NCBI GenBank assembly: GCA_003725745.1
Contig: RHDP01000001.1
Span: forward strand, 4,410,501-4,474,500
Source of the DNA: Streptomyces sp. I6
GTDB taxonomy: Bacteria; Actinomycetota; Actinomycetes; Streptomycetales; Streptomycetaceae
Length of the DNA stretch: 64,000 nt
Direction of reading: 5' to 3'
Below the pieces are notes generated by a model. The model made no database searches. It was not told where the DNA came from and saw nothing but the letters and a program-made list of their open reading frames with translations. Positions 5,164 to 16,569 of the stretch are shown here, piece by piece. Numbering within the stretch: position 1 is the first letter of the stretch; the number at the start of each line of letters is the position of its first letter. Position numbers and translations under genes: made by a program.

Positions 5164-6573
5164 TCAGCGGCGCACCCCTCTGCGGAGTTTCAGCAGCGCG
5201 CCGATCGCGCCGCTGCCCCGGGCCAGGCGGGCGTAGACGTCGGTGAGGGCCGTGTGCCAGGGGCCGTCGGCGTAGCCGGGGTAGGGGTGCACGGTGCGGG
5301 CGTAGTCGGACGGGGTCCAGCCCCGGCGCACCGCGGCCGCCAGATGGGCGATGGTCTCCCCGGCGCGCGGCGACACCACCGTGGCCCCGACGATCCTCCC
5401 GCGCGGGCCCAGCACCAGGGTGGTGAAGCCCTCGGTGCGGCCGTCGGCGACCGCCCGGTCCAGCCGGTCGTTGCCCAGCGTGTGGACGCGTGCCGTGTCG
5501 CCGTACTGTTCCCGTGCCTCGTCGGCGGTCAGGCCGACGCGGGCGATCTCGGGGTCGGTGTACGTCACCCAGGGCACCGCGCGGTAGTCGACGGGGCGGC
5601 GGACCCCGAGAAGCGCGTCGGTGGCGGCCGCACCGCCCTGTGTGCCCCCCAGATGGGTGAAGGCGGAACAGCCGGTGACGTCTCCGGCGGCGTAGATGCG
5701 GTGGTTGGTGGTGCGCAGCCGACGGTCGGTGCGGACATGGCCCGTCGCCGTCAGTTCCACCCCGGCCGCGTCCGGTGCGAGCGCCCGGGTGTTGGCGCGC
5801 CGGCCCGTGACGGCGAGCAGCGCGTCGTACGGGACCGCGCCACCGGGCCCGTGGACGGCCCCCGCGTCGACCCTCTCCGCCTGGTAGCCGGTCAGCACGG
5901 TGACGCCCTCGGCCTCCAGGCGCTCCCGCAACACCTCGGAGGCGCGCGGTTCCTCACGGGGCACCAGCCGGTCCATCGCCTCCACGAGCGTGACCTGTGA
6001 GCCGAGGCGGGCGAATGCCTGGCCGAGTTCGCAGCCGATGGGCCCGCCGCCCAGCACCACCAGCCGGTGGGGGAGCCCGGACAGCTCCCACACGGTGTCG
6101 CTGGTCAGCGGCCCGGCCTCGGCCAGACCCGGAAGCGGCGCCAGGGCAGGCGAGGAGCCCGTGGCGATCACCGCGTACCGGAAGGACACCTCCCGGTCGC
6201 CCGCCGCCAGGGAGCGCGGTCCGGTGAAGGCCGCCGCGCCGTACGCCACCTCGACGCCGAGCGGGGCGAGCGCCTCGGGCGAGTCGTGCGGCTCGATCGC
6301 GCCGATCGCCCGCTTCACCTCGCCCATGGCCGCCGCGAGGTCGGCACGGTCCGGCACCGGTGGGAGCCCGTAGGCGGAGGCGCGGCGGGCCGCCTGGACG
6401 TCGGCGGCCACATGGAGCAGGGCCTTGCTCGGTACGCAGCCGGTCCACAGGCAGTCGCCGCCCAGCCGGTCCCGCTCGACGAGCAGGGTGCGGGCGCCGA
6501 AGCGCCCGGCGGTGCGGGCCGCGGTCAGACCGGCACTGCCGCCGCCGATGACCACGAGATCGTACGTACTCAT
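5164..6573 (-). CDS. MerA/Lpd-like FAD-dependent pyridine nucleotide-disulfide oxidoreductase
   Basis: Class I flavin disulfide reductase of 469 residues. The FAD-binding GGGSAG is at residues 10-15, the redox-active pair C41/C46 in GGDCLWTGCVPSK, the NAD(P)-binding GGGPIGCELGQAFARLG in the middle, and the second FAD motif is IYAAGDVTG. The dimerisation end has HPYPGYADGPW instead of the HPHPT of lipoamide dehydrogenases, as in the mercuric-reductase-like subgroup. It lacks the MerA N-terminal heavy-metal domain, so mercury reduction should not be assumed. ATG at 6573 is taken because upstream translation is proline/arginine junk. It is transcribed away from the methyltransferase/TVP38 pair; homologues are often linked or fused to TVP38 proteins. 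Substrate unknown. Confidence 0.88.
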   Translation of the reverse strand: MSTYDLVVIGGGSAGLTAARTAGRFGARTLLVERDRLGGDCLWTGCVPSKALLHVAADVQAARRASAYGLPPVPDRADLAAAMGEVKRAIGAIEPHDSPEALAPLGVEVAYGAAAFTGPRSLAAGDREVSFRYAVIATGSSPALAPLPGLAEAGPLTSDTVWELSGLPHRLVVLGGGPIGCELGQAFARLGSQVTLVEAMDRLVPREEPRASEVLRERLEAEGVTVLTGYQAERVDAGAVHGPGGAVPYDALLAVTGRRANTRALAPDAAGVELTATGHVRTDRRLRTTNHRIYAAGDVTGCSAFTHLGGTQGGAAATDALLGVRRPVDYRAVPWVTYTDPEIARVGLTADEAREQYGDTARVHTLGNDRLDRAVADGRTEGFTTLVLGPRGRIVGATVVSPRAGETIAHLAAAVRRGWTPSDYARTVHPYPGYADGPWHTALTDVYARLARGSGAIGALLKLRRGVRR

Positions 6574-6607
6574 GCTGTTCGGGCTCTTTCCGCTCGGCGC
6601 ACGCTCC

Positions 6608-6640
6608 TGGGACGTGAGGGAAACCCGGCGCCACGGCCGG
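6608..6640 (-). promoter_or_regulatory. Shared leader motif upstream of the oxidoreductase gene
   Basis: Plus-strand TGGGACGTGAGGGAAACCCG followed by GCGCCACGGCCGG, ending 35 bases upstream of the oxidoreductase ATG. A close relative lies at 9227-9258, 36 bases upstream of the CDP-alcohol phosphotransferase start and in the same orientation. In RNA sense both contain TTCCCT, 3-4 bases, then GTCCCA next to a GC hairpin. It could be an RNA leader or an operator. Confidence 0.35.
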
Positions 6641-7019
6641 AGCCTTCCCGTCTGCCGTGCACGATCCCGTACGGCGACGGCCTCGCGTACGCCCTGGGGG
6701 AACGTCCTTCGGGTGGCGCCGTACGGGAGCGTCGGCCGGAAGGAAGCACCCCGCACCCGGGACGGTCCGTTGGGAGGGCCGTTCGGTCGGGAGCGCCGTC
6801 CCGCGGGAAGGCATAGGGACGCCTCCCGGGAACATCCCTGCCGAACCGGAGGGCCGGATGCGGAATGCGGGGCCGCCCCGGCGGGGTTCCCGGCGGCAGC
6901 GGCAGCGGCAGCGGCAGCGGCAGCGGCAGCGGCAGCGAGCACAGGGTACAGGGCAGCGGGTCGGCGGGTCGGCGGCAGCCGTGGAGCCAGAGGGAAGCGA
7001 CGAGGGAGAAGAGGGCCGG
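6641..7019. other. Divergent intergenic region with a hexamer repeat
   Basis: Non-coding DNA between the divergent oxidoreductase and methyltransferase genes. It contains several short G/C dyads and seven perfect copies of GGCAGC at 6895-6936, 84 bp before the methyltransferase start. Otherwise no gene is visible. Confidence 0.5.
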
Positions 7020-7797
7020 ATGGACGAACCGGAATGGCGGCGCTTCGTCGCCGCCTACCACCACGCCCGTCCGGGTATCACCGAACGCCTTTTCGATCTT
7101 GCCGACGCCTCCCCGTACGCCTGGCTGGCCGAACCCCTGCGGGACGCCCGCGGCACGATCCTCGACCTCGCCTGTGGCTCGGCCCCCGTCCGCGAGGAAC
7201 TCCCGGACGCCGGCTGGGTCGGTATCGACCTGTCGGCCGCGGAACTCGCCGACGCGGCGCGCCGGGGCCGCGGGCCGCTGGTCCGGGCCGACGCGGGCGC
7301 CCTCCCGATGGCCTCCGGCCGCGCGGGGGCGGTCTGCGCGGCCATGTGCCTGCCGGTCGTCACCCCCTGCCGCGTGTTCTCGGGGAGATCCGGCGCGTGC
7401 TGCGCCCCGGCGGGACACTCGCGGCGCTGGTCCCCTCCCAGACCGGGCTGTCCCCCTTCGGGATGCTCTCCTGGGTCCGGGTGATGGCCGCCCTGCGTGC
7501 CGTGCGCCAGCCGTGGCCCAACCCGCAGGCTCGCGACGGACTCGCCGCCCTGCTGCGCTCGGCCGGGTTCCGCGTCCGCTCCGACGAGCGGCGCGTCTTC
7601 CGTCTCACCGTCGACTCGGCCGACGCCGCGCATCTGCTGGCCGACGCCCTGTACCTGCCCGCACTGACCCCCGCCGCGCCGAAGCCGCCAGGCGGTCCCT
7701 CGCCCGGTGGGCCGTTCGGGGACGACGCCTCGAACTGCCGCTGCGCCGCGTGGTGGCCGACCTTCCGACCGGACGACCGTCACAGGAGCCGACATGA
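7020..7797 (+). CDS. SAM-dependent class I methyltransferase (two frameshifts)
   Basis: Restored length 259 residues. The SAM-binding loop ILDLACGSAP is near residue 50, followed by GWVGIDLS (acidic loop), LVRADAGALPM and the post-motif region EIRRVLRPGGTLAALVPS typical of Methyltransf_11/25 enzymes. The frame breaks in the C run at 7363-7367 and again at about 7668-7676; one added C at each gives a continuous protein ending RRVVADLPTGRPSQEPT. That stop overlaps the next start (ATGA at 7794), which supports both repairs. Start ATG 7020 follows a purine-rich GAAGAGGG. Its methyl acceptor is unknown; the cluster suggests a lipid or quinone-like substrate, which is inference. Confidence 0.75.
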
Positions 7798-8596
7798 ACC
7801 GCCCGGAAGTCCCCCGTCAACGCCCCGGCGACCGCCTTCGACGACTCCGCGACCGCCCTCCGACGCGACCCCGGACGCGACTCCGGACGTGACCCCGGAC
7901 GCGATCCGGGACGGAACCGGGCCCGCGGGCCCGGCGTGGACCAGGCTGGCCGTCCTGGTGGTGCTGGTGGCGGCGCTCGCGTCCTGGGCGGCGCTGGGGG
8001 GTGGTGTCGACCTGCTGCACGACGTGCGCCAGTGGGTCGACTCGCTCGGCCTGTGGGGGCCGGTGGTCTTCGCGCTCTGCTACGCCGTGGCGGTGACGGC
8101 GCTGCTGCCCGGCTCGGTGCTGACCGCGTCCGCGGGGGCGCTGTTCGGGCTGACGCTGGGGACCGCGGCGGTGCTCGTGGGGGCGACGGCGGGTGCCGCG
8201 CTGTCGTTCGGCCTGGCCCGCCGGCTGGGGCGGCCGGTGGTGGCCCGCTACGCGGGTTCGGGGCGACTGGCCCGGCTGGACTCGTATCTGACGCGCCGTG
8301 GGTTCGCTGCTGTGCTGCTGGTGCGGCTGGTGCCGCTGTTCCCCTTCTCGGTGATCAACTACGGAGCGGGGGTGGCCGGTGTGCGCTTCTCCTCCTATCT
8401 GGCCGCGACGGCCCTCGGGATCATCCCGGGCACCGTCGTCTACACCGGGCTCGGCGGGTCCCTGGGCGACCCTGCCTCGCCCGTGCTGTGGATCGCGCTC
8501 GGCGGTCTGCTGGTGCTGAGCGCCGGCGGCTGGTGGGCCGCCCGGCTGGTCCGCTCCCGTGGCGGGGAGTTCACCGGAGCTGCCGGTAGCCGGTGA
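7794..8596 (+). CDS. TVP38/TMEM64 (VTT-domain) membrane protein
   Basis: Integral membrane protein of the TVP38/DedA (VTT) superfamily, relatives of E. coli YdjX/YdjZ and of eukaryotic lipid scramblases. The VTT core is clear: LLPGSVLTASAGALFGLTLG, FGLARRLGR, then RLVPLFPFSVINYGAG and LGIIPGTVVYTGLG, with about five to six hydrophobic segments. ATG 7794 has AGGAG eight bases upstream and overlaps the methyltransferase stop; this start needs one C added to the run at 7811-7815. Without that repair the first in-frame start is GTG 7889. Its stop overlaps the end of the convergent phosphotransferase gene by 26 bp. Confidence 0.82.
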
Positions 8597-9191
8597 CGAC
8601 CCGGTGGGCCGCGGTGGCGCCGACGACCGCGGCCCACACCCAGGCGACGGTGTGGGCGGAACCGGGAAGCAGGCACCACAGGGTGTGTACGGCGATGGTC
8701 TCGGTCCCCTCGGCCAGACCGCCGATGAAGTTCAGCGAGCGGCCCCGCGAGAGCCGGTCCTCGTCGCGCCGCCGCCCGGTGCGCTCGGCGATGGAGGAGA
8801 AGGCCAGGAAGACCGTGCCGTTGACGTAGTAGGCGAGCAGCACGAGCAGGAACGGCAGCGCCGGGCCGCCCACGCCCACGGCGACGCCGATGACGAAGGC
8901 CCCGTAGACGAGGAAGTCGGCGCTGATGTCGAGGAAGCCGCCGGCCCCGGAGGTGTCGGCGGTGCCACGACGCCGGGCGAGCGGGCCGTCGAGGCCGTCG
9001 GCGAGCCGGGACAGCAGCCACAGTGCGGCGGCGGCCGGCCACCAGCCCGCCGCCGCGCAGCCCGCCGAGGCGAGACCCGTCAGCGCGCCGAGCGCGGTCA
9101 GCCGGCCGGGTGTGACGGCGGGACGGTCGAGCATCGCGGCGGCCCGGTCCAGCGGGCCGCCAAGTAGCGCTCGCGCCCGCACGTCCAGCAT
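8571..9191 (-). CDS. CDP-alcohol phosphatidyltransferase family protein (YnjF-like)
   Basis: Membrane enzyme expected to move a phosphoalcohol from a CDP-linked donor to a second alcohol, making a phospholipid or head-group intermediate. The CDP-OH-P signature is present as DGLDGPLARRRGTADTSGAG followed by GFLDISAD, with two extra residues between the AR and G..D..D parts compared with the canonical motif. Several hydrophobic segments follow in 206 residues. Start ATG 9191 has GGAG eight bases upstream. E. coli YnjF, the same family, sits beside YnjBCD, as here. Donor and acceptor are unknown. Confidence 0.85.
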   Translation of the reverse strand: MLDVRARALLGGPLDRAAAMLDRPAVTPGRLTALGALTGLASAGCAAAGWWPAAAALWLLSRLADGLDGPLARRRGTADTSGAGGFLDISADFLVYGAFVIGVAVGVGGPALPFLLVLLAYYVNGTVFLAFSSIAERTGRRRDEDRLSRGRSLNFIGGLAEGTETIAVHTLWCLLPGSAHTVAWVWAAVVGATAAHRVVTGYRQLR

Positions 9192-9226
9192 CCTCGGCTC
9201 CTTCCGTCGAACCGGCGCCGTGCCGG

Positions 9227-9258
9227 TGGGACACAAAGGGAAGCCCGCGGGCACCCGG
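9227..9258 (-). promoter_or_regulatory. Shared leader motif upstream of the CDP-alcohol phosphotransferase gene
   Basis: Plus-strand TGGGACACAAAGGGAAGCCC followed by GCGGGCACCCGG, ending 36 bases upstream of the ATG at 9191. It aligns with 6608-6640 upstream of the oxidoreductase gene in sequence, orientation and distance. Candidate co-regulatory site or structured leader. Confidence 0.35.
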
Positions 9259-9433
9259 CCGTGTTCCTTTTCCGCGCGACGGATTCCCGGGTTCCGCACG
9301 ACGGACGCCCGACTTCCGCACGGCGGAAGGCCGATGGCCCGCCGGGTGGGAGACGCGGCGGGACGAACGGGAGGAACAGGATGAACGGGATGAGCACAGT
9401 GAACGGGATGAGACGAACGAAGGAGCGGCACGC

Positions 9434-10701
9434 ATGGGGATACGGACGCGGCACACCGGGCGGCGCTACGGCAGGGTCACCGCCCTCGCCGCGGGGGCAG
9501 TCGCGACCGGGCTGCTGACGGCCGCCTGCTCGGGCACCGGCGACGGCCGGGCGGAGCCGCCGGCGAAGGACTGGGCCGAGCTGCGCGCCGAGGCACGCGG
9601 CCAGACGGTGAACCTGTTCATGTACGGCGGGGACGAGGGGGCCAACTCCTTCGTCGACGGCGAGGTCGCCCCGGCGGCGGAGAAGCTGGGCATCACCGTC
9701 CGGAGGGTCCCCGTGGCCGACACCCAGGACGCCGTGCAGAAGATCCTCGGCGATCAGCGGGCCGGCAAGGACGGCGGCGGCGCCGTGGACCTGGTGTGGG
9801 TCAACGGGGAGAACTTCCGCACGGGCAAGCAGGCGGACCTGTGGCTGTGCGGATACACCGGCCTGATGCCCAACCAGAAGTACCTGGACCGCTCCGACCC
9901 CACGCTCACGCACGACTTCGGCACGCCGGTCGACGACTGCGAGACCCCCTGGAACCGCGCCCGGTTCGCCTTCGTGTACGACTCGGCCAGAGTGCCCGAA
10001 CCTCCGCGCACCACGGCCGCCCTGATCGAGTGGATCAAGAAGAACCCCGGGCGCTTCACCTACCCCGCACCCCCGACTTCACCGGCTCGGCCTTCGTACG
10101 GCACCTGCTCACGGCCGGGGTGCCCGGCGCCGGGCCGGTCCCCGCGGAGTACGACGAGGACGCCTACGACGCCGTCGCCCCCGCACTCTGGAAGGAACTG
10201 AACGAGCTGAAGCCCGCCCTGTGGCGCCAGGGGACCACCCATCCCAAGGACCAACCGGCACTCGACGACCTGTTCGCCGACGGCGAGGTCGACATGACGA
10301 TGACCTACAACCCCGCGGGTGTCCCGGCACTCGTGGACAAGGGCCGGTTCCCGGCGACCACCCGGGTGTTCGTGCCCGAGGACGGCAGCCTCGGCAACAC
10401 CAGCTATCTCGCCGTGCCCGGGAACGCCGCCCACCGCGAGGCCGCACTCGTGCTGTCCGACCTGATGCTCTCGCCCGAGCTCCAGTACGCCAAGGCACGG
10501 CCCGGTGGCTGGGGCGCCTACCCGGTACTCGACCAGGACCGGCTGCCCGAGCAGTGGCGGCGCAAGTTCGCCTCGCTGACCGCTCCGGAGACGACGCTTC
10601 CCGCCGGGGAACTGTCCCGGAACACCCTGCCGGAGCTGAGCGGCGACTGGGTGGGCCCGCTCGACAAGGGCTGGAAGCGGGAAGTCGCCGCCGCCTCGTG
10701 A
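9434..10701 (+). CDS. ABC importer substrate-binding lipoprotein, YnjB-like (one frameshift)
   Basis: Lipoprotein with Arg-rich start, hydrophobic core and lipobox LTAAC (Cys32). The mature part (VNLFMYGGDEGANSFVDGEV, LVWVNGENFRTGKQADLW, then EVDMTMTYNPAGVPALVDKG) matches the YnjB type of extracellular solute-binding protein, distant from spermidine/thiamine binders. The frame breaks in the C run at 10070-10074 (TYPAP then DFTGSAFVRHLL); one added C gives 422 residues. ATG 9434 is preceded by AAGGAG. Its stop overlaps the permease start by four bases (GTGA), so it leads a translationally coupled transporter operon. Ligand unknown. Confidence 0.85.
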
Positions 10702-11567
10702 CCGTTCGTACGCCGCCGCGCCGGCGCGGGCTGCTGCTGGCCGCGCCCGCCCTCGCCGTCGTCGGCTTCGCCGCCGCCGCCCTGCTGCTCGCGGCCCGGG
10801 GCAGCCTCGCCGACGGTCTGGGCCGCGGCTGGAGCCTCTCCGCCTACGCCGACCTCCTCCGCGATCCCGCCCTCACCGGCTCCCTGCCGCTCAGCCTGGA
10901 GATCGCGGCGCTCAGCACCGCGGTATCGGCCGCGGCGGCCCTCGCCGTGGTCGGCGCGGTGAGCGGCTCCCGACGCGGCCGGGCCGCTCTCGATGCCGCC
11001 GCACGGGCCACGCTCGCGGTCCCGCACCTGCTCGCCGCCGCCGCGTTCGGTCTGCTCCTCTCCGGAGCGGGGCTCCTCTCCCGGCTCGCCCGCGCCGCCG
11101 GGTGGACCGACGGGCCCGCCGACTTCCCCGCCCTGGTCGGCGGCCCCGGCCACGCCGCCGTCCTGCTCACCTACGTATGGAAGGAAGCTCCCTTCGTCAC
11201 GGTGATGCTGCTGGCCGCCTACACGCCGGCCGTACGCGATCTCGAAACCGCGGCGCGCACCCTCGGCGCCGGACGGCTGCGCCGGCTCAGGTACGTCACG
11301 CTGCCGCTGCTCGCCCCGGCGCTCACCGAGGCGTGCCTGCTGGTCTTCGCGTTCACCTTCGCGGCGTACGAGATCCCCGCGCTGCTGGGCGCCACCGCAC
11401 CGCGCGCCCTGCCGGTGGAGGCCGTCGGCCTCTACCGGTCGGTGGAACTCGCCGACCGGCCGGGCGCCCTCGCCCTCGCGGTCGTGATCGGCCTGGTGAT
11501 CGCCCTCGCGGCGACCGCCGCCGCCGTCGTCTCCCGCCGGCTGCTGCGCGCGAGGACCGGCCCGTGA
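10698..11567 (+). CDS. ABC transporter permease, first YnjC-like half
   Basis: 289-residue inner-membrane permease with six likely transmembrane segments and the EAA loop DLETAARTLGAGRLRRLRYV before TLPLLAPALTEACLL. It lines up with the N-terminal half of the fused two-domain YnjC permease; here the two halves are separate genes. Start GTG 10698 overlaps the binding-protein stop and its own stop overlaps the next GTG (11564), both by four bases. Confidence 0.85.
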   Translation: MTVRTPPRRRGLLLAAPALAVVGFAAAALLLAARGSLADGLGRGWSLSAYADLLRDPALTGSLPLSLEIAALSTAVSAAAALAVVGAVSGSRRGRAALDAAARATLAVPHLLAAAAFGLLLSGAGLLSRLARAAGWTDGPADFPALVGGPGHAAVLLTYVWKEAPFVTVMLLAAYTPAVRDLETAARTLGAGRLRRLRYVTLPLLAPALTEACLLVFAFTFAAYEIPALLGATAPRALPVEAVGLYRSVELADRPGALALAVVIGLVIALAATAAAVVSRRLLRARTGP

Positions 11568-12582
11568 GGCGGGCACTGCGCCTCACGGGCGTCGCGCTGC
11601 TCGCCGTCTGGGTCGCGGCCCCCTGCTGCCGCTGCTGGTCTGGGCCTTCACCGGAAGGTGGGTGTACCCGGCGCTGGTGCCCCAGGAACTCTCGGCCCGC
11701 GCCTGGACCCGGGCCGCCGACCCGCACCAGCAGGTGATCGCCGCGACGGGCACCTCACTGGGGCTCGCCCTGGCCACCGCCCTGGCCGCCACCGCTCTCG
11801 GGGCCCTGGCGGCGCGGGGCCTGGTCCTGTACCGGCCGCCGGCCGCCGGGCTGATCCGCCTGGTGCTTCTCGCTCCCGTCCTGGTACCGCCGTTCGCCCT
11901 GGCCGTCGGTGTCCAGGAGGTCTTCGTACGGGCCGGGCTCGCCGACCAGCCGACCGGGGTCGCGCTCGTCCACCTGGTCCCCGCCCTGCCGTACACGGTG
12001 CTCGTCCTGATCGGCGGCTACGCCGGCTACGACCTCCGGATGGAGCAGACGGCGCGCACCCTGGGGGCTTCGCGGTACGCGGTGCTCCGGCACGTGACCC
12101 TGCCCGCCCTCGCTCCGGCCCTGCTGGCCGCGGCGACACTGGCCTTCCTGGTGTCGTGGAGCGAGTACCTCATGACGGTGCTGGTCGGCGGCGGGGTGGT
12201 CACCACACTGCCGCTGCTGCTGTTCGCCACCGCCGCCGGCAGCGGCAACCAGGCACTCACCGCCGTCCTGGGCATCCTCACCTTCGTCCCGCCGGTCGTG
12301 CTGTTCGGCGCGACCGCGGCGATCATGCGGCGCCACCGGGCGGTCTGGGCCGAAGCCGATCCAGCGGCCGCCGTCCCCGGTTCCGGTCCTGGTTCCGGTT
12401 CCTGCTCTGGTTCCGGTTCCGGTTCCGGTTCCGGTTCCTCCGCAACGGTTCGCGGACGGAGTCCCTCCGCCACCACTCCCGGCCCCCGCCCTTCGAGCGC
12501 TGCTCCCGGTTCCGGTTCCGGTTCCTCCGAAGCCGTTCCCGACCCCAGTCCCTCCGCCACCACCCCCGGAATCGACCGCTGA
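11564..12582 (+). CDS. ABC transporter permease, second YnjC-like half (one frameshift)
   Basis: Second membrane subunit, 339 residues when one C is added to the run at 11619-11623 (VWVAAP then LLPLLVWAF). The EAA loop is MEQTARTLGASRYAVLRHV before TLPALAPALLAAATLAFLVS. The last 75 residues are unusual: a Gly-Ser dipeptide stretch and a related second block, written in DNA as GGTTCC repeats at about 12370-12440 and 12505-12530. This tail lies beyond the last membrane segment, is probably disordered, and is not a known part of the family. Confidence 0.82.
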
Positions 12583-12587
12583 CCGCC

Positions 12588-13645
12588 ATGAGTACCTCGT
12601 CCTCCGCCTCCTTCCCCGGCCTGCGACTGGAAAGGATCACCGTCACCTATCCCGGGCACCGTTCGCCCGTCCTGGACGGCCTCGACCTCGAGGTCGCCGA
12701 CGGGCGGCTGCTGGCTCTGCTCGGTCCTTCCGGATGCGGCAAGACCACCACCGTGCAGGTCGCCTCCGGCCTCCTCACACCGACCGGCGGGGCCGTCCAT
12801 CTCCGCGGCACCGATGTCACCCGGACCCCACCGGAACACCGAGGCGCCGCAGTGGTCTTCCAGCAGCCCATGCTCCTGCCGCACCGCACGGCGCTGGACA
12901 ATGTGGCCTTTCCGGCCCGCATCCGCGGCCGGCCCCGCCGGGCCGCCCGTACGAGCGCCCTCGAACACCTGCGGCGCGTCGGCCTGGACGCACTCGCCGA
13001 CCGCTATCCCCGCCAGCTCTCGGGAGGGCAGGCCCAGCGCGTCGCCCTCGCCCGAGCCCTGGCCGCCGAACCGGCCGTGCTCCTTCTCGACGAACCGTTC
13101 AGCGCCCTCGACCCCGGCCTGCGGCACACCATGCGCGACCTGCTCGCTTCGGTCCAGCGGGAGTTGGCGGTGACCACCGTCCTGGTCACCCACGACCAGT
13201 CGGAGGCGGCCGCGGTCGCCGACAGCGTCGCCCTGCTCGACCACGGCAGGCTCCTGCAGCAGGCACGGCCCGCGGACCTCTACGCCCAGCCGGCCTCCCT
13301 GGCCGTGGCCCGCTTCCTCGGCTGTGCCACGGCGCTGCCCGGCAGTGTCACCCCGCACGGACGGTTCGCCTGCTCGCTGGGGGAACTGGAGCTGCCCGGC
13401 GCGGTCACCCACCGGGGCACCGGACACCTGGTGATCCGTCCCGAAGCCGTCCGGCTGGGCACCGGCCCGGACACCGTGCCCGCCGTGGTGCGCGGCGTAC
13501 GCCCGGAAGGCCCGTTCACGGCTCTCGTCGCCGACACCGCCGCCGGGCCCGTCCACGCACTTCTGCCGCCGGGCCCCCGCCCGCCGCATCGGAGCACGTC
13601 CGGCTGCACCTGCCCGTCGTGCACCGCTGGGTCGTCGCCGGCTGA
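12588..13645 (+). CDS. ABC transporter ATPase, YnjD-like (one frameshift)
   Basis: Cytosolic ATPase of the spermidine/iron type. Walker A GPSGCGKTT at residues 46-54, Q-loop VVFQQPMLLPH, signature LSGGQAQRVALARAL, Walker B VLLLDEPFSALD and switch His in LVTHDQSEA are all intact, followed by a TOBE-like C-terminal domain. The frame breaks in the C run at 13574-13578; one added C gives the end PAASEHVRLHLPVVHRWVVA and 352 residues. It starts five bases after the permease stop and completes the binding protein-permease-permease-ATPase operon. Confidence 0.87.
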
Positions 13646-13772: not shown

Positions 13773-14081
13773 TCAACGGGCGGGACCGCCCGGGCCGGGG
13801 TGGGCGATGCGTTGGGCGTAGCGCCGCAAGCGGACCGACGGGAGGGAGACGGGGGTGCGCCGCGGGGTGCGCCGCAGGGACGCCTTGATCAGGTGAAGCA
13901 GTTGCAAGCTGCCGCTGCACGCCCAGCAGCGGGCGACGTGAGCGGCCACTTCCGCCCGGCGCGCACCCGTGAGCTCGCCGTCGGCGTATGCCTCGACATC
14001 GCCGCGCAACCGGAGATGGCGTAGCTTCTCCCGGCACTCGGCCCACATCTGCTCGGGTCCGGGGGCGCGCCGCTTCCTCAT
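13773..14081 (-). CDS. Zinc-binding anti-sigma-like protein (zf-HC2)
   Basis: 102-residue soluble protein. Its middle, DVEAYADGELTGARRAEVAA followed by HVARCWAC, is the zf-HC2/ZAS fold with the H-x3-C-x2-C zinc ligands. It lacks a transmembrane segment and is basic at both ends. It is divergent from an ECF sigma gene that has its own linked ZAS partner, so it may be a second regulator of the same sigma factor or an orphan adaptor. Start ATG 14081 was taken because the conserved zinc domain follows at normal distance. Role is inference. Confidence 0.65.
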   Translation of the reverse strand: MRKRRAPGPEQMWAECREKLRHLRLRGDVEAYADGELTGARRAEVAAHVARCWACSGSLQLLHLIKASLRRTPRRTPVSLPSVRLRRYAQRIAHPGPGGPAR

Positions 14082-14245
14082 GGGGCGGGAACCCGGTCGG
14101 CGGGGCGGGTCATTCCACCGCCGACAGCGCGTCCGTGCGAGCCTCCCGTCCCGCGTCCCCCGTCCCGCGTCCCCCGTCCGTGCGAGCCTTGCGTCCCGCA
14201 CGCGTAAGCGAACGGAAGCAGACGACGGCGGATGAGCGCGAGGGA

Positions 14246-14845
14246 ATGCTCGCCACCGGACGGGGGTTCCCGTCGTGTGGAAGACGAAGTGACAGCGGCG
14301 CCGGACCCGGCCGACGCACGGGGAGGGCGTTCGCCACCCATGTGCTGCCCGAGGTGGAAGTGCTGCTGAGGGTGGCGACGACCCTGACCGCACAGCCCGC
14401 CGACGCCGAGGACCTGGTGCAGGAGACCCTGCTGCGCGCCTACCGGTCCGTCGACCGCTTCGACGGCAGGCACCCCCGTGCCTGGCTGCTGACGATCATG
14501 CGCAGGGCCGAGATCAACCGGCATCGGCGCCGCCGCCCGAACTTGCTCGACGATCCGGACGCCGACCTGGACCGTCTCAGCTCGACGGGCTCGGCCGGCT
14601 CCGCGGAGGAGGTGGTCGTCGGCGAGGCCTTCGACGAGGTGGTGGACTCCGCACTGTCGGGCCTGCCGGACAAGCACCGGCAGGTGGTGCAGCTGGTCGA
14701 CATCGACGGCCTCACCTATGCCGAGGCCGCCCATCTGCTGGACGTGCCCGAGGGCACGGTGATGAGCCGCCTGCACCGGGCGCGCAAACGGATACGAGCC
14801 CGCTTGGTGGCGGCCGGACTGGCACCGAAGCGAGGTGTGATGTGA
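14246..14845 (+). CDS. ECF-family RNA polymerase sigma factor
   Basis: Sigma-70 region 2 (ADAEDLVQETLLRAYRSVDR, FDGRHPRAWLLTIMRR) and region 4.2 (LPDKHRQVVQLVDIDGLTYA, then GTVMSRLHRARKRIRARL) are complete. The N-terminus is uncertain: ATG 14246 is in frame but gives an unconserved Gly/Arg-rich lead, while GTG 14289, preceded by GGAAG, gives VTAAPDPADARG and needs one G in the run at 14321-14327 to join GAFATHVLPEVEVLL (185 residues). The second fits the single-base-loss pattern here and the usual length. The stop overlaps the start of a zf-HC2 anti-sigma gene by four bases, as in ZAS-controlled sigma operons. Confidence 0.85.
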   Translation: MLATGRGFPSCGRRSDSGAGPGRRTGRAFATHVLPEVEVLLRVATTLTAQPADAEDLVQETLLRAYRSVDRFDGRHPRAWLLTIMRRAEINRHRRRRPNLLDDPDADLDRLSSTGSAGSAEEVVVGEAFDEVVDSALSGLPDKHRQVVQLVDIDGLTYAEAAHLLDVPEGTVMSRLHRARKRIRARLVAAGLAPKRGVM

Positions 14846-15165
14846 AGAAGCGTTCATGGTGGCGACGGTCCGCGGGCGAGCGCAGGATGAACTGTCTGCA
14901 GGTCGCGCGGCTGCTCCAGTCCTACCTCGACGGGGAGACGGACGAGGTCACCGCGCGCCGGGTCGCGGCGCATCTTGAGGACTGCCGCCGCTGCGGCCTT
15001 GAGGCATCGGTGTACGAGGAGATCCGCGGCGCTCTCTCCCGCAGGGGGACGCCCGACGCCGAAGCGGTCGCGCGGCTGCGCATCTTCGGTGAAGCGCTGC
15101 TGAGCGACCCGCCGGCCGCTGACGATGGCGGGGACCGCGGGGCGTCGCCGTCGGCGGGCGCCTGA
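14842..15165 (+). CDS. Zinc-binding anti-sigma factor (zf-HC2) partner of the ECF sigma
   Basis: 107 residues, translationally coupled to the sigma gene through GTGA. MNCLQVARLLQSYLDGETDE followed by HLEDCRRC carries the upstream Cys and the H-x3-C-x2-C zinc ligands of ZAS anti-sigma factors. No membrane segment follows, so it is probably a soluble, possibly redox-responsive anti-sigma. The acidic glycine-rich tail is not conserved. Signal unknown. Confidence 0.8.
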   Translation: MKKRSWWRRSAGERRMNCLQVARLLQSYLDGETDEVTARRVAAHLEDCRRCGLEASVYEEIRGALSRRGTPDAEAVARLRIFGEALLSDPPAADDGGDRGASPSAGA

Positions 15166-15447: not shown

Positions 15448-16569
15448 TCACCCGCCGGCCGCGAGTCCGGTCTTCGCCCCCGCCCCGCACAGCGGCACCA
15501 CGGCCGTCCGGTCTCCCAGGCCGTGCGCCCGGACGGCCGCCCAGCAGGCCGCGCCGGTGGGCTCGACGAACAGTCCGCGTGCGGCGAGGTCGAGTTGGGC
15601 GGCGCGGATCTGGTCGTCCGTCACGGTGAGGAAGGTGCCGCCGGAGGCCCGTACGGCGGACAGGATCTGACGGGCCCGGGGCGGGCGGGTGATGGCGATG
15701 CCCTCGGCCAGGGTGGGCGCGGTTGCCGGCGGGGTGATGTCCTCCCGTCCGGCTCGGAACGCGGCGGCCAGCGGGGCGACCGCCGCCGCCTGCACGGCGA
15801 TCATGGCGGGACGCTGGGCGATCAGGCCGTGTGCGTGCAGTTCCCCGACGGCCAGCTGGGCGCCGAGCAGCAGGGTGCCGTTGCCGGCCGGCAGGACCAG
15901 GACGTCGGGCAGCCGGCCGCCGAGGTCCTCCCACACCTCGTACACATAGGTCTTCGTGCCGTGCAGGAAGTACGGGTTGTGGACGTGCGAGGCGTAGAAG
16001 GAGCCGTCCTCGTCCGCGGCCGCGTGCGCCCTGCGGGCGGCCGCCTCGCGGTCCCCGGGCACCAGCTCCGGCCGGGCGCCGTGGGCGGCGATCTGCTCGA
16101 CCTTCTTCGGGGAGGTCGCTTCCGGGACGTACACGGTGCAGTCGAGGCCGGCACGGGCGCAGTACGCGGCGATCGAGGTGCCGGCGTTGCCGCTGCTGTC
16201 GGCGATCACCCGGCGCGGCCTCAGGCGCCGCGCGAGTTCGGCGAGCATCACCGCACCGCGGTCCTTGAAGGACAGGGTCGGCATCAGGAAGTCGAGCTTG
16301 GCGGTGAGGGTGGCGGTGAGCGGCACGAGTGGAGTCCGTCCCTCGCCGAGGGAGACGGCCCCGGGGCCGCCGCCCGTCGCCCCGGTAGCGGAGAGCGGCA
16401 GCGCCTCCTCGTACCGCCACAGTGAACCTGCCCTCCCGGCCAGGGAGTTGCGGGACACCGGGCCGGCGGTGAAGTCGAGGTCCCAGGGGCCGTGGCAGCG
16501 GGGGCAGCACCAGGCGAGGGACTCGACCGGGGAGCGCACGCCGCACACGGCGCACCGATAGTCCGTCAT
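15448..16569 (-). CDS. Threonine synthase-like PLP-dependent enzyme
   Basis: Fold-type II PLP enzyme of 373 residues. The N-terminus carries a CAVCG...CCPRC zinc ribbon as in archaeal-type threonine synthases. The PLP lysine is in LSFKDRGA, the phosphate-binding loop is SSGNAGTS, and the glycine-rich PAGNGTLLLG lies downstream. The expected role is conversion of O-phosphohomoserine to threonine, but related enzymes use other substrates and there are no other threonine genes nearby. ATG at 16569 begins directly with the zinc ribbon. The 280 bp after its stop hold only short G/C repeats. Confidence 0.82.
   Translation of the reverse strand: MTDYRCAVCGVRSPVESLAWCCPRCHGPWDLDFTAGPVSRNSLAGRAGSLWRYEEALPLSATGATGGGPGAVSLGEGRTPLVPLTATLTAKLDFLMPTLSFKDRGAVMLAELARRLRPRRVIADSSGNAGTSIAAYCARAGLDCTVYVPEATSPKKVEQIAAHGARPELVPGDREAAARRAHAAADEDGSFYASHVHNPYFLHGTKTYVYEVWEDLGGRLPDVLVLPAGNGTLLLGAQLAVGELHAHGLIAQRPAMIAVQAAAVAPLAAAFRAGREDITPPATAPTLAEGIAITRPPRARQILSAVRASGGTFLTVTDDQIRAAQLDLAARGLFVEPTGAACWAAVRAHGLGDRTAVVPLCGAGAKTGLAAGG

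Follow-up and report, generated by a model that had tools for sequence, protein, structure and literature searches.

What does a compact group of genes in Streptomyces sp. I6 that joins an ABC importer to a flavin reductase and two putative membrane-lipid proteins do for the cell, and do these genes belong together? The window analysed here, a 64,000-nucleotide stretch of the genome, had been described in a first-pass annotation as holding a counterpart of the Escherichia coli ydjXYZ-ynjABCDF neighbourhood, conserved across phyla as one pathway of import, modification and transfer to a lipid.

Most of the gene assignments were borne out by domain and model searches (Table 1). The MerA-like disulfide oxidoreductase (OXR) carries Pyr_redox_2 and a dimerisation domain and shares with MerA the domain layout and the CxxxxC redox pair, but it scores 329.5 bits against the TIGR02053 (MerA) cut-off of 454.45. 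MerA carries C-terminal vicinal cysteines. OXR differs in lacking them: it has an HPYP motif near its C-terminus, and its final stretch reads AIGALLKLRRGVRR. The TVP38/VTT membrane protein has a VTT domain at 7889-8596 (+) with 95 bits, and its ATG overlaps the methyltransferase stop. The importer is of the YnjB-YnjC-YnjD type with YnjC split, as had been proposed; two pieces of the binding protein both exceed the NF008633 cut-off of 203 bits (238.6 and 229.2), and they are accompanied by two separate permeases, each with BPD_transp_1, and an ABC ATPase. An earlier ORF at 12734-13645 had to be replaced, as it lies inside the ATPase gene, whose start is near 12588. The methyltransferase stood in part: a class I domain is present, but the Pfam matches at 6657-7484 are weak (25.1 bits against a cut-off of 27, and 23.4 against 21.2) and the gene does not read as a single frame. 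Next to the cluster lie an ECF sigma factor and a small protein with an HxxxCxxC motif, which we take to be a zinc-finger anti-sigma pattern. ORFs related to the two were found at nine and six of 102 loci, respectively, the window included.

Table 1. Features of the Streptomyces sp. I6 cluster and its flank (window positions)
Feature	Position	Strand	Basis
OXR, flavin NAD(P)H-disulfide oxidoreductase; CLWTGCVPSK redox pair, no C-terminal Cys-Cys	5164..6573	-	domain and model search, alignment
Divergent intergenic region, OXR/methyltransferase; GGCAGC-type simple repeat near 6890-6940	6574..7019	.	sequence
Class I SAM-dependent methyltransferase; one-base deficits near 7368 and 7673	7020..7797	+	Pfam, S. 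pacificus homologue
VTT/TVP38-TMEM64 (YdjX/YdjZ-type) membrane protein; one-base deficit near 7816	7794..8596	+	domain, tree
YnjF-type CDP-alcohol phosphotransferase (CDP); DxxDGxxAR..GxxxDxxxD motif intact	8571..9191	-	domain, alignment
YnjB-family substrate-binding protein; one-base deficit near 10074	9434..10701	+	domain, NF008633
ABC permease 1, first half of YnjC	10698..11567	+	domain
ABC permease 2, second half of YnjC; one-base deficit near 11620	11564..12582	+	domain
ABC ATPase with TOBE_2 domain, YnjD counterpart; one-base deficit near 13579	12588..13645	+	domain, sequence
ECF sigma factor, domain in second half of ORF	13988..14845	+	domain
Small protein with HxxxCxxC	14842..15165	+	sequence

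Like the methyltransferase gene, those for the binding protein, the second permease and the ATPase are not single frames. Compared with the S. pacificus locus L063, the window is one base short at the six sites given in Table 1, of which 7816 falls at the VTT start. All six are at runs of five C, although at 11620 and 13579 the extra base of the relative is not C. Because of this placement and an assembly completeness of 87%, homopolymer error looks likelier than decay, and the deficits are probably errors of the assembly.

The resemblance to E. coli was only partly right as first stated. E. coli K-12 does bring together VTT of the YdjX/YdjZ type (two genes, against one in the window), YnjB, YnjC, YnjD and YnjF, as the window does, but OXR and the methyltransferase are absent from its ydj-ynj region, so that 'the same five families' holds for only some of them. 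Conversely, E. coli has a single fused YnjC, as well as YdjY, YnjA and YnjE, for which E. coli-seeded profiles found no match in window positions 1-22000 (distant versions could be missed, and the YnjA profile matched only E. coli), and the window differs in its neighbouring ECF sigma and anti-sigma-like pair. FNR activates the ydjXYZ-ynjABCD operon, whose products, a transporter among them, are entered as predicted (PMC3688515); ynjE and ydjY appear in an expression table (PMC9068703), and a screen for ciprofloxacin tolerance included a ynjB deletion (PMC13131330). Clusters in Metabacillus (pBY2G20), Chengkuizengella and Planococcus have VTT, OXR, YnjB, two permeases, the ATPase and CDP together as in the window, but they are laid out differently on the strands; the Metabacillus stretch has no annotated methyltransferase, and the Planococcus cluster has a second match to the OXR profile.

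Do these families travel together more often than expected? We called CDP transferases YnjF-type above 200 bits, a line set in this analysis; the window protein scores 260 bits, and the hits listed below the line are three at 167-173 and the rest at or below 122. In 396 evenly drawn Actinomycetota genomes, YnjF-type genes occurred at 26 places in 25 genomes, and 22 of these 25 genomes had YnjB, compared with 37 of 396 overall (Fisher test). Reading positions off the two match lists placed YnjB within 10 kb at 17 of the 26 places; six genomes have both genes with no apparent linkage, some of them on short contigs. Nine YnjF places had no YnjB nearby, and there OXR over threshold was found at three (one with VTT), VTT alone at one and neither at five. 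Seen from YnjB, 73 loci with at least 6 kb on each side carried CDP in 31 cases, VTT in 31 and OXR in 26 (threshold 430 bits; counting weak matches, the OXR profile reached 36 of 102 loci). All three occurred at 22 of these loci and none at 37, with 14 mixed. Each family was found in none of 20 random 20-kb regions, drawn from six Actinomycetota genomes. Thus, the claim that the families cluster is upheld, far above chance, although tests on the YnjB loci corrected for relatedness gave modest signals, weaker than the uncorrected ones. One piece of the split methyltransferase gene served to build a profile, which matched at only 10 of 102 loci.

These counts describe the following sample. The 80 named loci are the best 80 of at least 562 confirmed candidates, ranked by similarity to the Streptomyces query, and percentages among them are not population frequencies. 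A YnjB match was present in 36 other genomes; loci were also taken from 19 of these, plus G102, some being contig ends. Two overlapping sets of 75 and 72 records supplied eight plasmid records, chosen by hand, and tests were rerun without these eight and without E. coli. Duplicates (four loci) were removed, the 73- and 105-locus counts exclude the window because its binding protein is split, and the family profiles were built from the same loci as were counted. Within this sample, five phyla or more show importer, VTT and CDP alongside one particular OXR subfamily; in a sixth, Fusobacteriota, VTT and CDP occur with no OXR over threshold. The cluster is rare in Streptomyces: YnjB exceeded its cut-off in two genomes out of 150 sampled, G102 and that of the window.

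The reductases and VTT proteins of these loci mostly fall into specific subfamilies. Of 36 reductases encoded at YnjB loci, 32 sit in one OXR clade (support 97), together with the two from TIGR04283 loci and one of 17 paralogues; this sole paralogue adjoins a VTT gene. In the VTT tree, the YdjX/YdjZ side (support 99) holds 42 of 46 proteins from YnjB loci and 11 of 24 paralogues; the window protein groups here and not with DedA/YqjA. Proteins of COG0398 DedA are discussed as possible phospholipid scramblases, and their fusions are most often to PF07992+PF02852 (PMC10127716). A Klebsiella plasmid carries such a VTT-OXR fusion beside YnjB, a permease, an ATPase and CDP.

In the CDP transferase, the columns of DxxDGxxAR...GxxxDxxxD are invariant in 21 of 21 aligned rows, with varying spacing. 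YnjF is nearest to inositol-phosphate-type CDP transferases. The window protein shares family and catalytic motif with Mycobacterium PgsA1, Renibacterium PIPS and archaeal AIPS, but falls below their equivalog cut-offs; for phosphatidylinositol-phosphate synthase (NF045883) it reaches 24.3 bits against 170. In the GLxExxE-type motif of YnjF, most rows have G where PgsA1, PIPS and AIPS have R, whereas Bacillota rows keep the R.

What might the importer bring in? Near YnjB, 105 unique loci include 18 with a nucleoside hydrolase and 15 with an APH-type kinase, which directly adjoin YnjB in Rubrobacter-type loci and in Peptoclostridium. These neighbours hint at a riboside-like ligand. Between CDP-linked and hydrolase-linked binding proteins, no position was conserved at 75% or more in both with different residues.

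A second hint comes from an overlap that is new here, with clusters of genes named for arsenosugar biosynthesis; a literature search returned no work joining TVP38 with arsenosugar. TIGR04283- and TIGR04282-type glycosyltransferase genes lie near YnjB at nine and eight of 102 loci, co-directional in several; at L056 the order is YdjY, VTT, VTT, TIGR04283, TIGR04282, YnjB, permease, permease, ATPase, APH. The OXR flank of two relatives from Streptomyces, L041 and L061, holds TIGR04283 together with a radical SAM gene and a gene that fuses a metallophosphatase to radical SAM. In separate TIGR04283 loci, YdjY and VTT accompany ArsS at L174 (414 bits, cut-off 300) and an ArsM-radical-SAM fusion at L171 (248.8, just below 263), and YdjZ groups with the VTT proteins of these loci (support 97). 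Such actinomycetotal clusters, some with YdjZ-type VTT and YdjY, others with OXR and VTT, differ from the window in carrying glycosyltransferases and ArsS or ArsM-radical SAM. Among 20 TIGR04283 loci fetched of 30 returned, VTT occurred at four, YdjY at two and OXR over threshold at two; YnjB and CDP had no match in these 20, which did not include G338, the genome of L056. Together, these links and the hydrolase and kinase neighbours narrow the range of likely chemistry.

Based on these findings, we propose that this cluster represents one form of an uptake-and-membrane-lipid system that is conserved but uncharacterised, a reading to which we give a probability of about 0.42. The solute taken up by the importer would be small and polar, with a riboside or some polyol or sugar derivative akin to it as the likeliest candidates. 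OXR, and in Streptomyces the methyltransferase, may then change the solute's redox state and its methylation, the YnjF-type transferase may couple the solute or product to a CDP-activated lipid, and the YdjX/YdjZ-type VTT protein may move the resulting uncommon phospholipid between membrane leaflets. Judged from the protein families, import, redox or methyl change and lipid transfer would fit in this order.

It is possible, though unlikely, that the solute is more specifically an organoarsenic or organoselenium/sulfur compound, such that arsenosugar-like 5-substituted ribosides are imported and made into phospholipids by a branch of the ArsS/TIGR04282/TIGR04283 system. The cluster links above point this way, and arsenosugar phospholipids do exist (PMC7345539). 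However, at 1e-30 no TIGR04283 match turned up in the window genome (87% complete), nor did the linked radical SAM gene, the arsenosugar role of TIGR04282 and TIGR04283 rests on family names, and VTT, YdjY and OXR are in the minority among the 20 TIGR04283 loci fetched. E. coli is not known to be an arsenosugar producer. Carried to its full extent, with the E. coli and Streptomyces clusters as scavenging branches of the ArsS/TIGR04283 pathway whose 5-substituted ribosides (arsenosugar-like or selenium/sulfur analogues) would be imported, altered in redox and methylation state, joined to CDP-diacylglycerol by YnjF and flipped by a TMEM41B-like VTT scramblase, the idea is decidedly speculative and we consider it improbable.

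It is likewise doubtful that VTT and OXR form a redox or oxyanion stress module, jointly handling thiols or oxyanions of metalloids at the membrane, while importer and YnjF co-travel by horizontal transfer. VTT-OXR fusions, FNR activation in E. coli, rhodanese and carboxymuconolactone decarboxylase neighbours and the adjoining sigma/anti-sigma pair are consistent with it, but YnjF tracks YnjB genome-wide, including the six genomes without apparent linkage, which mere co-transfer does not predict. Rather improbable is plain nutrient uptake, in which an importer of polyamines, aminophosphonates, thiamine or nucleosides sits beside unrelated housekeeping genes; permeases and ATPase match the PotC, PhnU, PhnT and ThiP models, with none of the scores anywhere near cut-off, YnjB is entered as polyamine-binding in a review table (PMC9397018), and hydrolase-linked relatives exist, but the co-occurrence and subfamily specificity of the set argue against it. 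As VTT and CDP families are common (5-11 and 4-8 matches per genome in six genomes), chance neighbours might be suspected; the random regions, the 73-locus counts and the 396-genome test contradict this, and we give it almost no credence.

The recurrence across phyla gives the E. coli operon a defined list of partners and a candidate chemistry open to testing in K-12. The cluster may also offer a bacterial example of a TMEM41B-like VTT protein paired with a lipid enzyme dedicated to it. Last, through some neighbours of the set, the finding ties arsenosugar-named genes to an E. coli operon.

The window (G000:C1:4410501-4474500) belongs to an assembly of 7.05 Mb with a completeness rating of 87%. 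Past the ATPase gene of its cluster lie an ECF sigma factor and then an anti-sigma-like protein.

Genes of the Streptomyces sp. I6 cluster (window positions)
Gene	Position	Strand
Flavin disulfide oxidoreductase (OXR)	5164-6573	-
Methyltransferase	7020-7797	+
TVP38/TMEM64-type membrane protein (VTT)	7794-8596	+
YnjF-type CDP-alcohol phosphotransferase (CDP)	8571-9191	-
YnjB-type binding protein	9434-10701	+
Permease (first)	10698-11567	+
Permease (second)	11564-12582	+
ATPase	12588-13645	+

The reading frame is broken in four genes, those for the methyltransferase, the binding protein, the second permease and the ATPase. Compared with the S. pacificus locus L063, which is 90-96% identical across three stretches covering the cluster, the window is one base short at 7368, 7673, 7816, 10074, 11620 and 13579, each time at a five-C run; the extra S. 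pacificus base at 11620 and 13579 is not a C. This pattern at C-runs and the low completeness suggest that the deficits are systematic homopolymer errors of the window assembly. The alignment with L063 ends near the OXR 3' end. Upstream, an IS4-family transposase with two overlapping ORFs (DDE_Tnp_1, Nterm_IS4; 1376-2865) separates the cluster from a YchF-type GTPase gene; a GGTTCC-type simple repeat (12380-12530) falls where the second permease gene encodes its C-terminal tail; and a PLP-dependent enzyme (PALP, 15448-16569) is also found downstream of the S. pacificus cluster.

The first-pass annotation regarded the cluster as the Streptomyces counterpart of E. coli ydjXYZ-ynjABCDF, conserved as one pathway. 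The K-12 region contains ydjX, ydjY, ydjZ, ynjA, ynjB, ynjC, ynjD and ynjE, with ynjF on the opposite strand. The correspondence stands for the importer, YnjF and VTT families, but it does not extend to OXR and the methyltransferase, which the window has and the E. coli region lacks. A profile search of window positions 1-22000 found no YdjY, YnjA or YnjE. One list of FNR-activated operons gives ydjXYZ-ynjABCD as one operon and ynjE as a separate entry (PMC3688515). Of the DedA proteins in E. coli, YdjX and YdjZ come closest to human TMEM41B (PMC7818093); neither rescued a DedA-family mutant from its cell-division defect (PMC3836016).

Our first locus set (n = 102) comprised the best 80 of at least 562 confirmed candidates by similarity to a Streptomyces query, 20 further loci, E. 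coli and the window; VTT was present in 38, CDP in 36 and OXR in 36, weak OXR matches included. For a refined set of 73, four duplicates and the window were removed, eight plasmid loci were added, flanks of at least 6 kb on both sides were required, and OXR was counted from a line of 430 bits. Here CDP occurred in 31 loci, VTT in 31 and OXR in 26; all three were present in 22, none in 37, and 14 were mixed. CDP and VTT were associated when relatedness was ignored (Fisher p 9e-12). On the tree, a mean of 5.5-6.6 independent pairs were concordant and 0 discordant for CDP-VTT (median p 0.031 in one direction and 0.016 in the other), compared with about 5 concordant and 1 discordant for CDP-OXR (p 0.22) and a p of 0.06 for VTT-OXR. 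Leaving out E. coli and the plasmid loci (n = 64; all three partners in 20, none in 34) weakened the CDP-VTT tree test to p 0.06-0.13. None of 20 random regions (20 kb each, spaced positions in six of the genomes, same thresholds) contained any of nine profile families, in keeping with 5-11 VTT and 4-8 CDP matches per genome.

Genome-wide, 396 evenly sampled genomes of Actinomycetota contained YnjF-type genes (>200 bits) at 26 places in 25 genomes. YnjB was present in 22 of these 25 versus 37 of the 396 overall (Fisher p 3e-23, relatedness ignored), and lay within 10 kb at 17 of the 26 places. Six genomes had both without visible linkage, some of their contigs being short. The nine places without a nearby YnjB had OXR and VTT (one), OXR (two), VTT (one) or neither at threshold (five). 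The co-occurrence holds in the 73-locus counts and the YnjF-type genomes, against the empty random regions, and the 73-locus test becomes weaker after correction for relatedness. The neighbourhood is a real functional set, inherited patchily, broader than first supposed and differently made up in E. coli.

VTT, OXR and CDP accompany YnjB in Actinomycetota, Bacillota (Planococcus, Chengkuizengella, Metabacillus), Chloroflexota, one spirochaete MAG (L103) and Pseudomonadota, the last on a Klebsiella plasmid where VTT and OXR are fused. This fusion agrees with COG0398 DedA proteins, possible phospholipid scramblases whose commonest fusion is to pyridine-nucleotide oxidoreductase domains (PMC10127716). 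Besides the fusion, the plasmid island (L195, 4059-11358) encodes YnjB, permease and ATPase, CDP and a second FAD oxidoreductase, and genes for a carboxymuconolactone decarboxylase and a sigma-70 factor lie close by. Plasmids of Salmonella, Citrobacter and Providencia also carry YnjB matches, at the same 67% identity. In Cetobacterium (Fusobacteriota), VTT and CDP are joined by annotated FAD oxidoreductases, with no OXR match over threshold. At the Deinococcus locus, a carboxymuconolactone decarboxylase and FAD oxidoreductases are present, with no CDP or VTT match, and Rhodobacterales loci mostly have the importer without partners.

Among 55 disulfide oxidoreductases, a single clade (support 97) united 32 of 36 from YnjB loci, both from TIGR04283 loci and one of 17 paralogues, which were drawn from four of the genomes; the paralogue in the clade (genome G337) adjoins a VTT gene. 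The other four YnjB-locus reductases and 16 paralogues fell outside. OXR keeps its redox pair, but the C-terminal cysteine pair, present in a MerA-like Modestobacter neighbour, is missing. In the VTT tree (76 proteins), the YdjX/YdjZ side (support 99) contained 42 of 46 from YnjB loci, all four from TIGR04283 loci and 11 of 24 paralogues, and four from YnjB loci fell with DedA/YqjA; the specificity of VTT is therefore for the YdjX/YdjZ half as a whole rather than for the cluster. The YnjF catalytic motif is intact in 21 of 21 aligned rows, and its nearest PDB relatives are inositol-phosphate-type synthases.

Several YnjB importers without CDP directly adjoin nucleoside hydrolases and APH-type kinases, as in the Rubrobacter-type order (APH, hydrolase, YnjB, two permeases, ATPase) and in Peptoclostridium (hydrolase, YnjB, two permeases, ATPase). 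The Rubrobacter-type genes are co-directional in loci L042, L044, L046, L058 and L060, perhaps an operon for nucleoside or riboside uptake. Other importers (L101, L105, L106, L110, L125) lie near what we take to be dihydroxyacetone-kinase-, isomerase- and aldolase-like genes, which may form an island for the catabolism of a sugar or riboside. Across 39 CDP-linked, 18 hydrolase-linked, 7 TIGR04283-linked and 41 other binding proteins, fifty positions reached at least 85% conservation in every group, and none separated the CDP-linked from the hydrolase-linked group at the chosen threshold. This speaks for one shared class of ligand, ribosides for example, although conserved structure by itself could also produce such a result. 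An AlphaFold model of the L061 protein (pLDDT 91.2, pTM 0.86) indicates only a type II binding protein.

Clustering of neighbours in the 102 loci surfaced TIGR04283 and TIGR04282, both named 'arsenosugar biosynthesis glycosyltransferase' in NCBIfam, with profile matches in nine and eight loci; the two representatives score over cut-off. Locus L056 reads YdjY, VTT, VTT, TIGR04283, TIGR04282, YnjB, two permeases, ATPase, APH kinase. In two Streptomyces relatives, the OXR side has TIGR04283, a metallophosphatase-radical SAM fusion and a radical SAM gene whose family occurs in 13 of the 102 loci. In L061 (170-1861) and L041 (2976-4679), the N-terminus of the fusion is presumably metallophosphatase-like and the fused part is an Rv1681-like radical SAM domain (L061, 274 bits, below the cut-off of 380). 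Among 20 Actinomycetota TIGR04283 loci fetched of 30 returned, four had VTT, two had YdjY, two had an OXR above 430 bits and none had YnjB or CDP; genome G338, where TIGR04283 is linked to YnjB, is outside these 20. YdjY and VTT accompany a true ArsS (L174, 414 bits versus a cut-off of 300) and a fusion of ArsM-like and radical SAM domains (L171, just under cut-off). E. coli YdjZ clusters with the VTTs of these loci in a small tree (support 97). We retain the reading that the cluster handles arsenic as a rival, and as the boldest case, because phospholipids bearing arsenosugars are an established class of lipids (PMC7345539) and because, according to one review, a radical SAM enzyme adenosylates arsenic during arsenosugar biosynthesis (PMC12159101). 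The window genome has no TIGR04283 at 1e-30 and no copy of the linked radical SAM, and its locus would therefore be a reduced or scavenging version.

Gene identities, motifs, co-occurrence and subfamily placement are observed. In the mechanism that we propose, the imported solute would be a riboside or polyol, which OXR and the methyltransferase would modify; YnjF would couple it to a CDP-lipid, and VTT would move the product. The cluster now has a candidate chemistry that is open to testing.
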